From Halalkalicoccus sp. CGA53 (lineage in GTDB: Archaea; Halobacteriota; Halobacteria; Halobacteriales; Halalkalicoccaceae): DNA of 64,000 nt. The position numbers and the translations under genes are program-made. The notes beneath the pieces were generated by a model. It was given only the letters and a program-made list of their open reading frames with translations, was not told the DNA's origin and did no database searches. The stretch spans positions 186,001 through 250,000 of the forward strand of contig NZ_CP144125.1 of the NCBI RefSeq assembly GCF_036429475.1, read 5' to 3'. Each line of letters begins with the position of its first letter. The first letter of the stretch is position 1. Below are positions 35,462 through 42,717 of the stretch, one piece after another.

Positions 35462-36620
35462 TAGTGATTAGCGAATCTTATTGAGGAATCCGTCGAAGTG
35501 ATTGTCAATCCAGGAGGCAGCGAAGCTGAGTTTCTCGGTCAGTTGCTCGAACAGCTCGTCGAGCAGTGCTCGGTATTCGTCTTCGCCGTCAACGATCAGC
35601 GGCGAAGACTTCCACTTGAGACTTTTCCAGACTGGTTCAATTGGATTGAGGTCCGGTGAACCAACCGGGAGGAACACGAGATCGATCCCGAGTTCGTGGG
35701 CCCGCTTGCGCGTGTACTTGCAGACGTGAGAGGAGAAGTTATCCAACACGAGCAGAATCCGCGTGCCGGGATTCTGCTCGCGAATCTCCTTGAAACACTC
35801 ACAGATCTCTTCTTTCGCTTGATTCGGTGGAAACGACAGCACGCTCTCACCGTTGAGCGCATAGAACCCGGCCGCTGGTGTGTCGATTTTCACTAGCGGC
35901 CGGGTAATGTGAGGCTCATCGACCGTGTACAACCGCTGAGAGTTGTCCCACGGTTGTGGGTGCGACACATCGAAAAACCCCCACTACGAGCCCACCATCA
36001 GTGCAAAGATCGTCGTCGGTGTCCCACTCTTCGTCGTCTTCGTCGTCCTCGCGCTTGTTGTGGGGATGATCGTCGTCTTCCTCGTCGAACGCATACTCGA
36101 CGCGTTCGTCGAGGATTGCTTCGGCGTTGTCTGGGCGGTCAGGACGTTTGGTGCGAGGAATCGCGTACGAGAGGCCAAGTTCGTCCAGAATCGTTGGGAG
36201 GTAGTGAGGGTGATATTTGACATCAAATTCCTCACTAAGGAGATGCTGAATCTCTTGTTTCTTCCAGGGCTGACCTTCACGGAGGCGGTCGATCAGTTCT
36301 TGTTGCTTGGTTTCGTCGAGCTTCGGGGGCCTGCCGCCCCCGAAGTTCGGCGTGAGCTTGCCCAGTCCTCCTTCATTCCAGCGTTCAACCCAGTTGCTGG
36401 CTGTCCCCTCTGATTTCCCGACATCATCAGCGGCTTCAATGAGCGTCGCTCCTTTGTACAGCCGCTTGATGAACACGAGTCGCTTGTACACTTTCACATC
36501 GTCAACTTCGTTGAGTAATCGATCCAGATCTTCCTCGCTCAAATGACGAAGAATCTCTTTCTCCTGACCCGTCACTACTTGAGGAAAACGCTTTTCCTCA
36601 ATAATTTCCCCGAATCACTA
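35462..36620 (-). mobile_element. IS630-family element, copy A (about 1.16 kb)
   Basis: The two ends, read inwards, are TAGTGATTAGCGAATCTTAT (left) and TAGTGATTCGGGGAAATTAT (right strand), both continuing TGAGGAA. They include the TA target duplication of Tc1/IS630 elements. It is inserted into the IS4 remnant. It contains a transposase with one frameshift. Confidence 0.8.
35468..36575 (-). pseudogene. IS630-family transposase with one frameshift (copy A)
   Basis: The first frame (36575 down to 35916) encodes the HTH part (MTGQEKEILRHLSEEDLDRL, GGGRPPKLDETKQQELIDRL, YHPHYLPTILDELGLSYAIP) and an acidic linker. The second frame (35968 down to 35468) encodes the DDE part (MSHPQPWDNSQRLYTVDEPH, ILLVLDNFSSHVCKYTRKRA, GSPDLNPIEPVWKSLKW), with the second Asp and final Glu. 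The frames overlap around a run of five G and five T (35980-35990 region). One extra base separates VVGVF from the VGFFDVSHPQ expected by comparison with copy B. It may be a mutation or a programmed slip site. Confidence 0.75.
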
Positions 36621-36957
36621 CGGCGAAGCCGAACACGAACGCCCAGACGAACGCCGGGATCTGGAGCTTGCGGTAGCGTTCGACCACGCCGAGTTCCTCG
36701 GCGTGCTCTTCGAGGAACTCGGAGGGAAACAGTGTAGTGAGCCGACGCATAATTCGAGATGAGGAGGCTTCGGTGTACACACTCGTCGCCTCCTCATTCC
36801 TCTCGAAAAGATGCCTCGATAAGCCGCCGCCGTCACGCGGTTCGTCTGTTAACTAAAGACGGATGGTCGGCGACGTTTACATTCCCTACCGTGCGCACGT
36901 GTTCACTGATTGGATCTCGCCCCAGAGTTCAAGCAGCCGTTCAAGAAATAAACCGAG

Positions 36958-37137
36958 ATGGCCGTCAAGGACATCGTGACGCCGCTCCAGCTCCCGGCTG
37001 GAGCGGCTCTCACCGTCGTGTTCGATTCTGCTTATTACGTCGGCGAGCTTGTCGTGGCGATCCAAGAAGAGGACTACGACGTGGTCTGTCGCTACGGATC
37101 TATTGAATCCACAGAAGGCGTTGGGATAGTCCGTTAG
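36958..37137 (+). pseudogene. DDE transposase fragment of unassigned family
   Basis: The frame reads MAVKDIVTPLQLPAGAALTV, VFDSAYYVGELVVAIQEEDY, then DVVCRYGSIESTEG and a stop. VFDSAYY holds the catalytic Asp of a DDE transposase and DVVCRY the following strand, as in IS4/IS1634-like enzymes. Sequence before it (TGGATCTCGCCCCAGAGTTC) continues the same protein in another frame. It is a remnant without ends. Confidence 0.5.
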
Positions 37138-37141
37138 AATA

Positions 37142-37638
37142 TTGGAATTAAAGCGGAAGAAGCCAGTTGTGCAAAAAGTCCTCTTCCGCTTCGTCAAACA
37201 GGCTGTCTCGGTCGCACGAAAACTTACTGATGCAGCGCTGATGCAAATCAACCATCCTGCCGGCAACGGGAGTGATTGGCGTAACCTTTGAACTTCCCAG
37301 ATCTGCAAACTGCGTCCTCTCATACCGTCGATCCCGGTCTCGTCGACAACGTATTCAACCGTTGCGCAGACCACTCAACGCCGGGCGACCTCCTCGGCCT
37401 CACTGCTGACCGAGGCTATGACGCGAAAGCCTTCCGCGACGAACTCCGTGAAAACGGCGTTTGTCCTCTGATCAAACACCGGATCTTCACTCTGCTCGAT
37501 CACGCTCACAACGCCCACATCGACAATGATCGGTATAACCAGCGCACGATGGAAACAGTCTTCTCAAGCATCAAGCGCACTCTCTTGGTGGCGCTGCCGC
37601 GCTTGCGCGAACTTGGTGGCTGGAGTTCCGCGAGATGA
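37142..37638 (+). pseudogene. IS5-family transposase remnant (copy B)
   Basis: The first piece reads KKPVVQKVLFRFVKQAVSVA then RKLTDAALMQINHPAGNGSD. After frame changes DPGLVDNVFNRCADHSTPGD, LLGLTADRGYDAKAFRDELR, CPLIKHRIFTLLDHAHNAHI and NQRTMETVFSSIKRTL follow. These are the final DDE part and the typical C-terminal Y-N-Q-R-x-x-E-T-V-F signature of haloarchaeal IS5 elements. It has several frameshifts and is inactive. Related remnants lie at 35000 (copy A) and 46030 (copy C). Confidence 0.7.
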
Positions 37639-37689
37639 TTCTCAAAGCAACCGTCTATAACATCCGGCGGAGCGTCCAATATCCATGAA

Positions 37690-38013
37690 ATTCAGCGCCG
37701 TGTACCGAAACTACAGAGCGCATAAGTTTTACCATCGCACGATTCTCATTGACGGTCGTTTTCATCTCGGGATATAATATTGCCATTATAAACTAACTAT
37801 ATTTAATCTTTAAGAGTATATTATTTAATAAATTATTGCTATGATTATAGGTATTTCCTTCTTCCTTGATTAACGACTCAATTATTTGATAACCGACGGA
37901 TCATCGGCGATCAACAGGTCGATATTTGGTCGCAGTCCTACTATAGAATTCGCCTATGGAGAACATCCAATCCAAAAATATATAATTGAATTTGTCTCGA
38001 GTTAAATTTTTGT
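37690..38013. other. AT-rich gap upstream of the IclR gene, no gene seen
   Basis: All frames are closed. It contains several TATA-like runs (ATATTATTTAATAAATTATT near 37829). It marks the change from IS debris to the AT-rich regulator gene. It carries the IclR promoter at its right end. Confidence 0.4.
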
Positions 38014-38040
38014 TTGTGTACAAATTGGAATTCGGGAGGG
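37989..38040 (+). promoter_or_regulatory. Inverted repeat and Shine-Dalgarno upstream of IclR
   Basis: AATTTGT (37989-37995) and ACAAATT (38020-38026) are perfect inverted arms in the promoter region, a possible autoregulatory operator. TTCGGGAGGG (38031-38040) then supplies a strong Shine-Dalgarno sequence six bases before the ATG at 38047. This is the main reason for choosing that start over the ATG at 38014. Confidence 0.4.
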
Positions 38041-38046
38041 TTTATT

Positions 38047-38838
38047 ATGATTGGGTTGGAAAAGCATAGCATGGTTAGAGAAAACAGATCAAATGACATA
38101 GTAAAATCCGACGAGACACTGTTCGCCATTATCGAAATACTTCAGCATCATGATCAAGCCGGTGTTACAATGCTGGCAAACTCTCTTGGGATGGCTAAAA
38201 GCTCTGTTCATAAACATTTAAAAACGCTTGAAAAAAATGGATATGTTATCAATAAAAGTGGGAAATACCAATTGGGATTTAAGTTATTATCGATTGGAGG
38301 AGCAATTCGAGACAGTGACAGATTCTGTAACCTTGCACGTGAATCTGTTCAGAAATTAGTAGAAGATACCAATCAGATGGTGATTTTCTCTTATCGGGAA
38401 GGACTGGACGGAGTAGTTGTATTTGTCAGAAATGATCGATATGGGCTTCGGAATGAAGTGCCTCTCGGTAATAGATTCTCGCTTCATATGAACGCTGCCG
38501 GAAAAGCCATTCTAGCAAAATTAGCAGACCCTGAGATAGAAGAATTCCTACGAAAAATAGACCTTATTCCGGCAACACCCAACACGATAACAAGTAAAAA
38601 TGAATTGTGGGACGAGATAGAACGTGTACGAGAGAAGGGCTATGCTATAAGTAAAGAGGAGCGTGTAAAAGGTGTTCAATCAATTGCCGGTGCAGTTGAA
38701 AGTGGAGGAGAAGTAGGGGCAATCTCAATATCATTACCTGCTGACTATTCAACTACAGCACAAATTCATACTCGGTTCTCGGAAATAATAGTAGAAACAG
38801 CAAACGAGCTGGAGTTACGTGCTCGCTATAAAATATAA
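38047..38838 (+). CDS. IclR-family transcriptional regulator
   Basis: A 263-residue protein. The N-terminal winged helix (about 25-80) contains LFAIIEILQHHDQAGVTMLA, LGMAKSSVHKHLKTLEKNGY and the wing VINKSGKYQLGFKLL. The C-terminal effector domain includes ARESVQKLVEDTNQMVIFSY, PLGNRFSLHMNAAGKAILAK and AISKEERVKGVQSIAGAVES. IclR proteins usually control catabolic genes in response to a carboxylic or aromatic effector. The best nearby candidate target is the TRAP operon at 43129-46025, now separated by IS elements. The gene is AT-rich. Confidence 0.9.
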   Translation: MIGLEKHSMVRENRSNDIVKSDETLFAIIEILQHHDQAGVTMLANSLGMAKSSVHKHLKTLEKNGYVINKSGKYQLGFKLLSIGGAIRDSDRFCNLARESVQKLVEDTNQMVIFSYREGLDGVVVFVRNDRYGLRNEVPLGNRFSLHMNAAGKAILAKLADPEIEEFLRKIDLIPATPNTITSKNELWDEIERVREKGYAISKEERVKGVQSIAGAVESGGEVGAISISLPADYSTTAQIHTRFSEIIVETANELELRARYKI

Positions 38839-39051
38839 TTAGCAGATATGGCGAAGAGTCAGAAATTTTTGCTACAGGAGGGGAGTGACTTCCTAATCTA
38901 AAAATGGTTTTGAGACAGTAAAATTACAAACATACTGTTGTAATTAGACTCTAATTGAAATTGCTGATAAGGATTGTTTATAATCATCTTGCCATTACTT
39001 TCTCGGCCGGGGTTTGGTTGTCGGGTGCCAGGCTTGGCTGTTGGCTGTTAT

Positions 39052-39198
39052 CAGGGTGTCATAGAATACGTCTCACACCCCTATCTGGTACTTATACGGG
39101 CTTCAGTTCATACCTCACTCCCTGAGGCACTCATCTTTAGATTCGTTCAGAAAATGTGGTCTGAAATGTTCGGTATGAGAACTATTGTATGACACCCT
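39052..39198. mobile_element. MITE of 147 bp with 7-bp target duplication
   Basis: The left end CAGGGTGTCATAGAATACG, running to GTCTCA, is mirrored at the right. The complementary strand of the right end reads AGGGTGTCATACAATAGTT then CTCA. Exact copies of CTGTTAT (39045-39051 and 39199-39205) flank the unit. No coding sequence is inside. It is a non-autonomous transposable unit whose partner transposase is not obvious in this window. Confidence 0.72.
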
Positions 39199-39205
39199 CT
39201 GTTAT

Positions 39206-39890
39206 AGTAAAAGTCGAAGGTGATGAAAAAGCGCTGGGTGCTGGCGCGTCTGCCAATCCACGTTTGATGGAACCGCTCGATCCGCATCGCGAGTATCTGA
39301 AACCACTTTTCGATCAGAATCCATTCGACGTAATATAGCCGACCGGTCAGATCACATCCACAAGAGCGGTTAGGGAGCCTATGCCGTGGACGAAAAACGT
39401 CACCTCCAAGAGGTTCTGTTTCTCGGCTGACTGGCCAAGAAAACCGGCTGGTAGATCCGTCTCTCGATGAGGAGAGATCATCAAATCGAACACGAGCTTT
39501 GTCTCGACATCCATAGCGGCGTTGAGCCAGTGCTGCTGGGGAGCAGTCCTTATCGCAGCATCATCGACAGAGACCCACGATTGCGTGGCCGTCCTCAAAA
39601 ATCGAGGGTTTCTGATGGGCAGCACGAGAGCGAATCTCTCGTGGACCTCGGTGGGTCTGAAGCTTCGGAGGCAACGCGATGAACCCATTGGAACACTGCT
39701 TGATGTGATCGATAGATCTCGAACGTTTCGAAAGCGGCGGCCGTTTCACGAAGTGAAAGTCCTACAGAATAGATCCGTACCGCGAGCGCTCTGAGGGCGT
39801 TCGCGTTGCTCTCTTCAGCACAGCATTGTAGTGGACCAGTTTTGAGAGGGACGATGAGTGGTTCTTGGACTTCCAAGACAGCCGAATTCA
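39206..39890 (-). pseudogene. IS6-family (ISH14/15-like) transposase remnant
   Basis: On the minus strand in sequence: RIYSVGLSLRETAAAFETFE and SHQAVFQWVHRV (HTH part), then SVDDAAIRTAPQQHWLNAAM and DVETKLVFDLMISPHRETDL (first and second catalytic strands), then in another frame GRLYYVEWILIEKWFQILAM, RIERFHQTWIGRRASTQRFF (third catalytic Glu region). There are at least two frameshifts, and the end is fused to other DNA near the MITE. Confidence 0.7.
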
Positions 39891-40230
39891 AGAACTGCTC
39901 GCTCGTTGGCTCGACATTACCTCAGTAAGAGATGTATTGGGTGGTCGATAAAATATCTTAGTCATTATCCGGGAATTCGTTCGCCTAGAACGAACGCATT
40001 CTACCTTTCTACGACTGAAACTCAATTCGCCGGGCAATTGTGTCGAAAAGCTCCTTCAATACAATATTGGACTCTGTAGTTTCGCTAGACGGAGTTGCCG
40101 CGACTGCGTCATTGCCGTAGAAAGCGAAGAGACAGATTGGTATGACATCCGAAATCCATCTCTTCACTTGTGTCACGGTCGCTAAAGCTAAATCAGTTGT
40201 CGCTCACTCCGACGAACCCGCCGACTCCGA
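39891..40230. other. Gap of about 340 bases, no gene recognised
   Basis: It lies between the IS6 remnant and IS630 copy C. All frames are short. The rest of the IS1595 copy into which IS630-C is inserted should have been found here but is missing, so this segment probably marks a deletion endpoint. Confidence 0.35.
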
Positions 40231-41338
40231 TAGGACTTAGCGCAAGCGATTGATGTCGATGAAGGTTTCGAGCCAGTCAGCAGCGAAGCTGAGTCGCTGT
40301 GTCAGTTCGAGGAACGTTGCTTCGACGAGAGCGCGGAACTCGTCCGCGCTCTCGGTCGATATCGGGGAGAGATACCGTTTCAGGCTGTTCCAGACCGGCT
40401 CGATTGGTTGGAGATGCGGCGACGCAACTGGAAGAAACACCAGCGAGATACCGAGTTCTTCGGCCTTCTCACGTGTGTAGGTACACGTGTGCGAGGAGAA
40501 ATTGTCCAGGACGAGCAGAATCCGACCGGTCGGATTCTGCTCGCGGATCGTCTCGAACACCTCGCCGATCCGCTCTTTATGCAACGACTCTAGTGACCGG
40601 AGCACGCTTGTTCCGTTCACGGCGTAGAAGCCAACAGCGGTGGTTTTCACCTGCGGCATCTGTTTGACGAGTCTGGGCGTGCCGAACGCCCAGACTCGAT
40701 GCTTATTGTCCGTCGGTATCGGCCACGACGCGTCGAAAGAAGCCCAAGACAGTCTCTCCGGGATCAGCGGCCTCCTCGAGAGAGTCATCTGCTGTCTCGC
40801 CGAGCGCCTCTTCCAGGTGCTCGGCGAGCAGTTCTTCTGCATTCTCTGGTCGGGACGGCGTCTCTGGACATGGAATCGCGTAAGACATCCGATAGGTGTT
40901 GCGGAGCAGTCGCTGGATTGAGCCAGAATGTTAGCTGATGCCGAACTCGTCTTCGATCAGCTGTCTGATTTCGGCAGTTGTCCAGGGTTGGCCCTCTTGG
41001 AGGAGGCGTTGGAAATTTCTTGCTTGTTGGGGGGAAAGCTTCGGGGGCTGGCCGCCCCCCGAAGCTCGGGATCAATCCATCCTGGGCGTTTTCGTTCCTC
41101 CGTTCAAGTCACTCACTACCGATTCCTCGGGTCGCTCCGCACGCCAGGCAGCCTCTTCGATTGTATCGCCTGCGTAGAGATTCCGCACGAAACAGAGACG
41201 GCGGACGACACGTCGGTCGTCCGCCTTCTTGATCGCGTCGCGCAATTCCTCGTGGGATAGATGCCGCTCGAGGTGTGCGCGCCGATTACTCATGACTTTT
41301 CTGCGCGCTCTACCATCAAAAACTAGCGTTCAACCCTA
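40231..41338 (-). mobile_element. IS630-family element, copy C (degraded, divergent)
   Basis: The ends read inwards TAGGACTTAGCGCAAGCGAT then TGATG (left), and TAGGGTTGAACGCTAGTTTT then TGATG (right strand), with TA at both boundaries. The right boundary lies inside an IS1595 transposase gene. It is a different subgroup from copies A and B, judging by both ends and protein. Confidence 0.7.
40237..41293 (-). pseudogene. IS630-family transposase remnant (copy C)
   Basis: The parts in order are an HTH start (MSNRRAHLERHLSHEELRDA, VRRLCFVRNLYAGDTIEEAA), a broken middle with SYAIPCPETPSRPENAEELL, and a DDE end (VGFYAVNGTSVLRSLESLHK, ILLVLDNFSSHTCTYTREKA, ASPHLQPIEPVWNSLKRYLS). Successive pieces lie in different frames, so at least three frameshifts are present. 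Confidence 0.7.
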
Positions 41339-41537
41339 GCGCGAAGGTCGTGCCGGTCTTTGGGTTGAACGTGCGGTCGCAATCCGTACAGAGATACCGC
41401 TGATACTCTCGATAGCTGCCGTATTTGATCACTGACTCAGACTGGCAGCGCGGGCAGTAGAGGCCGTCACGCCAGCGGACCTGCTCCAGCAGGTTCGCGG
41501 CGCTCGCCTCTGAGCTAAGCAATTCAAATGGGAACAT
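41339..41537 (-). pseudogene. IS1595 transposase, N-terminal fragment
   Basis: It reads MFPFELLSSEASAANLLEQV, RWRDGLYCPRCQSESVIKYG and YLCTDCDRTFNPKTGTTFA, nearly identical to the start of the intact transposase at 21564-22448 (zinc ribbon included). It stops where IS630 copy C is inserted. The following LGLNASF is read-through into that element. Confidence 0.8.
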
Positions 41538-41556
41538 TGCATTCGGGTGACGCGGT

Positions 41557-42717
41557 TAGTGAGTCACGGAAGTTTTAGGTATACGTTGAGATGGGAAGGT
41601 GATGACTGGACGGGAGAAAGGGATCGTCCGACACCTCAGTGAGGACGATCTCGACCGCTTGCTCACACAGACTGATCATGAGAAGGTGAGAAAGCGGCTC
41701 ACCTTCATCAAATGGCTGTACAAAGGTGCAACGCTCGAAGATGCAGCCGACGATGTCGGTATGTCTCAATCAACCAGTAGTTGGTGGGTCAAGCTCTGGA
41801 ATGAGGGCGGACTCGGTCTGCTAACCCCGAACTTCGGGGGCGGTCGGCCCCCGAAGCTCGACGATGAACAACGCGAGCGTCTTCTCGAACTCCTCGAAGA
41901 AAGTGAACCCTGGAAGAAACAGGAGATTCAACACCTCTTGAACACTGAGTTCAATGTCAAGTTCCACCCGAACTATCTTCCACGCTTTCTCTCTAATCTT
42001 GGCCTCTCGTACGCGATTCCGCGTACAGAGGGGCCAGACCGACCAAAGGACGCTAACGAAATTCTCGAAGAACGCGTTGCCGATGCGTTCGTCGAGGATG
42101 AAACTGACGACCCACACAACAAACGGCCTGAGGACGACAGCGACGAGGAATGGACGGTTGATGATGATGTCCGGACAGATGGTGGAACGACGGTCGGATT
42201 CTTCGATATCTCGCACCCACAACCGTGGGACAATTCTCAACGGCTCTACACAGTGAGTGAACCAACGATCACCCGGCCGCTGGTGTATCGATTTTCACCA
42301 GCGGCCGGGTTCTATGCGCTCAACGGTGAGAGTGTCCTCCAGTTTCTCCCGAATCAAGAGAAAGAACAGATTTGCTCGTGTCTCGAAGGGATACGCGAGC
42401 AGAACCCGCTCGTCCGGATTCTCCTCGTCTTGGACACCTTCTCGTCACATTTCCTATGCGCACACGCGTGAACGAGCCCACGAACTCGGGATTGATCTCA
42501 TCTTTCTTTCAGTTGGCTCACCGCGCCTCAACCCAATCGAGCCGGTTTGGAAGAGCCTCAAATGGGAGTCGTCACCCCTGATCGTGGAGGATGCGGGCGA
42601 GTACCGCCCCCTCCTTGATAAGATCTTCACGAAGCTGACCGAACGGTTGAGCTTTGCGAGCGCGTGGATTGAAAATTATCTCGGCGAATAAATCCAAAAG
42701 TTACGTTAACGACTATA
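41557..42717 (+). mobile_element. IS630-family element, copy B (about 1.16 kb)
   Basis: The left end TTAGTGAGTCACGGAAGTTT and the right end, read on the complementary strand as TATAGTCGTTAACGTAACTT then TTGG, are imperfect inverted repeats starting at TA. It is inserted into the hairpin loop upstream of the second IS1595 copy. It belongs to the same subgroup as copy A, by the protein. Confidence 0.75.
41602..42691 (+). pseudogene. IS630-family transposase with one frameshift (copy B)
   Basis: The first frame runs MTGREKGIVRHLSEDDLDRL, GGGRPPKLDDEQRERLLELL, NYLPRFLSNLGLSYAIPRTE, TVGFFDISHPQPWDNSQRLY and ILLVLDTFSSH (second Asp), and ends early at 42471. The continuation AHTRERAHELGIDLIFLSVG, SPRLNPIEPVWKSLKWESSP (final Glu) is in the next frame to 42691. 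The shift is near 42450-42460. Comparison with copy A shows each copy is intact where the other is broken. Confidence 0.78.

Follow-up and report, generated by a model that had tools for sequence, protein, structure and literature searches.

A MITE with ISH11-type ends inside an old IS6-type insertion sequence of Halalkalicoccus sp. CGA53, and its family across haloarchaea

The genome of Halalkalicoccus sp. CGA53 consists of two contigs, C1 and C2, and the window analysed here is the 64,000-nucleotide stretch C2:186001-250000, to which all positions given without a contig refer. The window is about 70% G+C at both ends; at 36000-42700, within a stretch of low G+C, degenerate transposase genes of several types are clustered beside a gene for an IclR-type regulator (38014-38838). 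Within this cluster lies a short non-coding element with inverted ends, flanked by a direct repeat and placed near one end of a degenerate insertion sequence (IS), with the following features:

38993-39921 (borders approximate), minus strand: the target, a degenerate IS6-type (IS240 DDE) IS split by the MITE near its end, as judged from flank matches and joined flanks
39046-39051, no strand: left copy of the target duplication TGTTAT (CTGTTAT from 39045 in a 7-bp reading)
39052-39199, plus strand: MITE, with a length of 148 bp when bounded by CA...TC as in the family (ending at 39198 if one assigns the last C to the duplication)
39053-39079, plus strand: left terminal inverted repeat (L end), with ACGTCTCACACC, matching the family L end
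39080-39171, plus strand: non-coding interior, homologous to family interiors by profile score, with no open frame and no Rfam match
39172-39198, minus strand: right terminal inverted repeat (R end), with AGTTCTCATACC read inward, 24 of 26 bases identical to the R ends of own-genome ISH11-type copies and of ISHla6
39200-39205, no strand: right copy of the target duplication TGTTAT (CTGTTAT from 39199 in a 7-bp reading)

The inverted ends are as the preliminary description of this DNA had them: read inward they are GGGTGTCATAGAATACGTCTCA (left) and GGGTGTCATACAATAGTTCTCA (right), 27 nt each and complementary at 23 of 27 positions (85%). When inverted pairs were required to have 27-nt arms with at least 23 pairs and a distance of 60-400 nt between arms, this was the single such pair in the whole window, and it is flanked besides by a repeat 6 bp long or longer; no pair of this quality arose in 40 first-order Markov simulations of the window. 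The flanking direct repeat is CTGTTAT (39045-39051 and 39199-39205), from which the preliminary description had derived a 147-bp MITE with a perfect 7-bp duplication. Both the direct repeat and the MITE stand, but the length and boundary shift by one base when relatives are considered. Across 67 family sites, CA precedes the left GGG/GCG in 55 and TC follows the right CCC/CGC in 63, and since the window element is likewise bounded by CA and TC, the family boundary places it at 39052-39199, with a length of 148 bp and a 6-bp duplication, TGTTAT. The C at 39199 is ambiguous, and at the level of sequence 147 bp with 7 bp is equivalent to 148 bp with 6 bp.

The element is short, has terminal inverted repeats and a target-site duplication and lacks a transposase gene; its body occurs once in its own genome, and the repeated, dispersed copies that also characterise MITEs are found in other genomes. 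The genome collection holds 57 stretches with the exact 20-mer of the left end, each bearing a haloarchaeal title, and a sequence-only profile matches the MITE in 67 of the order's 392 genomes, among them that of the window (C2:225055-225196, E 1.1e-21, with this member itself part of the model). The identification as a MITE, against which the preliminary description would have counted the lack of a second copy and of any IS with matching ends in any haloarchaeon, is thus supported by relatives in dozens of haloarchaeal genomes and by ISH11-group ISs whose ends match (see below). At least eight copies are present in each of three other genomes, with up to eight candidates scored per genome.

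For counts of lengths and sites we accepted left ends with at most two mismatches, dropped those less than 600 bases from a locus end, and took the nearest acceptable right end, which was absent for 6 of 83 left ends. On this basis, which favours short lengths, 54 of the 63 distinct elements with this left end measure 143-148 bp (33 of 146 bp and 13 of 147 bp); of the others, one is 135 bp long and eight range from 258 to 1144 bp. Pairs of members that diverge by more than 30% differ on average by 59 substitutions and about one gap. Perfect duplications of 5-9 bp flank 40 of 67 family sites, compared with 11 of 4422 combinations in which flanks of different sites were paired, and at 27 of the 67 sites a perfect duplication of at least 4 bp is lacking. 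The family is an order-wide haloarchaeal one with a core of about 146 bp and an inherited interior of its own. In alignment A1 its consensus has two TTATAC motifs, one towards either end and both facing the same way; the window element keeps the left one only. Carriage by viruses was considered and rejected: the MITE found no match in phage records, and the exact 24-base left end is absent from viral contigs.

Identical copies at different places point to recent movement in other species. Natrinema pellirubrum (genome G153) has, among the matches listed, 147-bp copies at eight places, all identical in sequence. Perfect duplications of 6-9 bp flank five of them; in two of the remaining three, the right flank is that of a copy with a perfect duplication. 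At three N. pellirubrum loci (L215, L217 and L219) identical copies agree in the right flank and differ in the left one, a pattern suggestive of recombination among them. This genome also contains open ISH11-type transposase frames. With their many identical copies, the elements of N. pellirubrum and Natronococcus jeotgali look recently active. On plasmid pNATPE02 of N. pellirubrum (L250, 1275-5646), a copy interrupts pglX of a BREX-5 phage-defence locus, leaving frames of 833 and 580 aa that correspond to residues 1-835 and 832-1412 of a single PglX profile; this split gene is a clear consequence of MITE insertion.

Sites from which the element is missing are available for a relative and, by reconstruction, for the window element itself. 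A search with 72 joined sites returned five alignments across the junction, one of which was inspected as clean: L129 is the empty site of the copy at L127, in a metagenome-assembled haloarchaeon, with a duplication of about 5 bp. When the window element and one TGTTAT are removed from the window, three out of four IS6-type homologues align with the restored site by BLAST over the junction (L246, L247 and L249), the first of which carries a DDE_Tnp_IS240 domain; with the fourth (L248), the BLAST piece begins 3 bases left of the junction, and further left a gapped alignment was needed. These alignments indicate that the MITE jumped into an older IS6-type sequence.

In agreement with the earlier remark that the element has no coding capacity, its 144-bp core holds no open frame, with at least one stop in every frame, and a coding reading of the family was rejected because no frame is open in more than 1 of 54 members. 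Against a profile built from the other members, the interior of the window element scores 18.2 bits, and the best of 2000 shuffles 6.9, so that its kinship with the family extends beyond the ends. All 131 interior hits were accompanied by ends, a figure biased by the fact that most of these loci had been fetched through their ends. A gene for a structured RNA, or a regulatory hairpin, with inverted repeats at its ends by chance would fit the nearly fixed length and the partly conserved interior, and the ends are able to pair as a stem. We nevertheless regard it as extremely improbable: a structural alignment of 28 of the 43 distinct elements, from which a 135-bp member and near-duplicates above 85% were excluded, yields on both strands a consensus fold made up of the terminal repeats alone, in which the interior forms no helix and one pair shows compensatory change; an Rfam search with the MITE gave no match; and the family bears the marks of a mobile element, namely duplications beside the insertions, empty sites and identical copies at separate places.

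ISs of the ISH11 group carry ends that match those of the MITE. Comparing L with L and R with R over the first 26 bases, 46 of 52 positions are shared with ISHla6 and as many with an IS of genome G099, and 44 of 52 with an ISH11-type copy in the window's own genome, whereas crossed pairing of the ends gives 40-41 for these three. Over 24 IS end pairs the matched pairing is better in 16 and the crossed pairing in 8, so a partner IS is not clearly singled out. The transposase of the group is present in 136 of the 392 genomes of the order, namely in 45 of the 67 with the MITE and in 91 of the 325 without it (Fisher test, which ignores kinship among genomes). Passages of PMC10264941 that treat ISH11 give duplications of 6, 8 and 9 bp for it, which the 5-9 bp of the MITE resemble.

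From these observations, rather than from observed transposition, we infer that an ISH11-group transposase is the probable mover of the MITE. That a transposase outside this group moves it would accommodate the 22 of 67 MITE genomes in which no ISH11 transposase was hit at E 1e-20; given the identity of the ends, the similar duplication lengths and the co-occurrence with the ISH11 transposase, we consider this improbable. Internal deletion of an IS is a common origin of MITEs, and that background, together with the match of both ends to ISH11-type ISs, would favour seeing the element as a recently shrunken ISH11-type IS and not as a separate lineage. The interior argues otherwise, since a profile of it finds nothing in 11 loci with ISH11-group ISs and the interior of the window element is homologous to those of MITEs in other genera, and there is accordingly little chance that such a deletion derivative is what we see. 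An element with ISH11-group ends and an interior of its own, moved by the transposase of that group, remains the preferred reading.

A search of the whole genome for further copies of the ends, as the preliminary description had proposed, recovered them in ISH11-type elements on contig C1, but returned no second copy of the body. The C1 sequences concerned are:

C1:83094-84158: ISH11-type element
C1:85862-85876: ISH11-type end beside another interrupted copy
C1:194479-195541: ISH11-type element

The first ten bases of these ISs are the same as those of the MITE, and one of them has GGGTGTCATAGAACG at its left and GGGTGTCATAGAAGA at its right end. Their transposase is 80-85% identical to those annotated for ISH11, ISHma6 and ISNpe17. 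The longest copy holds an in-frame TAG and the remaining copies are fragments; an intact partner transposase is therefore absent from the assembly. All nine ISH11 transposase hits in the genome fall outside C2:186001-250000, so the earlier observation that the parent transposase does not lie in the window is correct. Because the ISH11-type copies are broken, the window element now looks stranded, and is presumably immobile in its present genome. The interval C1:83094-85877 (L011, 2095-4878) contains two ISH11-type remnants, and an unrelated transposase-like frame adjoins the end of the second.

Elsewhere on C2, at about 3423112-3423798 (L013, 5113-5799), lies a 687-bp element with the same ends and a perfect 7-bp duplication, TAGAGTA. 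Without its outer bases it measures 683 bp (3423114-3423796), and it encodes a 157-aa DUF6653 gene and no transposase. Whether it is one of a widespread class of DUF6653 carriers was considered and rejected: paired ISH11-type ends surround the gene in none of the 7 plasmid homologues examined (12 were found).

We assign a probability of roughly 0.9 to the reading that the window element is a MITE with ISH11-group ends, moved by the transposase of that group, which inserted into an old IS6-type IS and belongs to an order-wide family. Part of what this reading draws on can be read from the DNA itself: the ends, the duplication, the empty site, the relatives, the recent multiplication in other species and the ends in common with ISH11-type ISs. 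Mechanistically, the transposase would recognise both ends, slightly different as L and R, and would excise or copy the element, the cutting chemistry being presumed; the element would then be joined to a staggered cut in the target, in this case within the old IS6-type sequence, and joining at such a cut would duplicate 5-9 bp of target.

The window element is an ordinary kind of mobile element. A search of the literature for a 146-bp MITE with ISH11 ends did not find the family, which does not in itself prove its absence from print. The analysis defines a haloarchaeal MITE family that spans the order and for which a candidate partner, the ISH11 group, can be named. The single feature of interest to the specialist is the near-fixed length despite strong divergence, which makes it testable whether end spacing limits transposition. 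The excess of substitutions over gaps in divergent pairs, in a family with neither a gene nor an RNA fold, leads us to the tentative suggestion, somewhat doubtful at present, that the family might be an ancient lineage with an inheritance of its own, in which selection acts on length and interior, and not a decaying relic of an IS. If so, the interior would be a spacing or binding module that brings together the two ends of so short a DNA, and the family would offer a natural length standard for end pairing by an IS5-type transposase.

Among known systems, the ISH11 group of IS5-type ISs (ISH11, ISHma6, ISNpe17, ISHla6 and ISNpe2) shares with the MITE terminal GGGTGTCATA / GCGTGTCATA and subterminal similarity. 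These ISs are about 1064 bp long and encode a 330-aa transposase, whereas the MITE, at about 146 bp, has no gene and an unrelated interior. Like the window MITE, ISH2 (a MITE of ISH8 in Halobacterium), MITEHsal1 and MITEHsal2 are haloarchaeal elements without a transposase; the sizes of ISH2 (531 bp) and MITEHsal2 (411-413 bp) are unlike that of the present element. Passages of PMC10264941 describe ISH2 as mobilised in trans by the ISH8 transposase and give duplications of 6 and 8 bp for MITEHsal2. The HqIRS families of Haloquadratum walsbyi are alike by description: sections of PMC3119063 present them as short MITEs with target duplications and with ends related to a resident transposon, one of them in a genome where the partner transposase survives in broken copies only.
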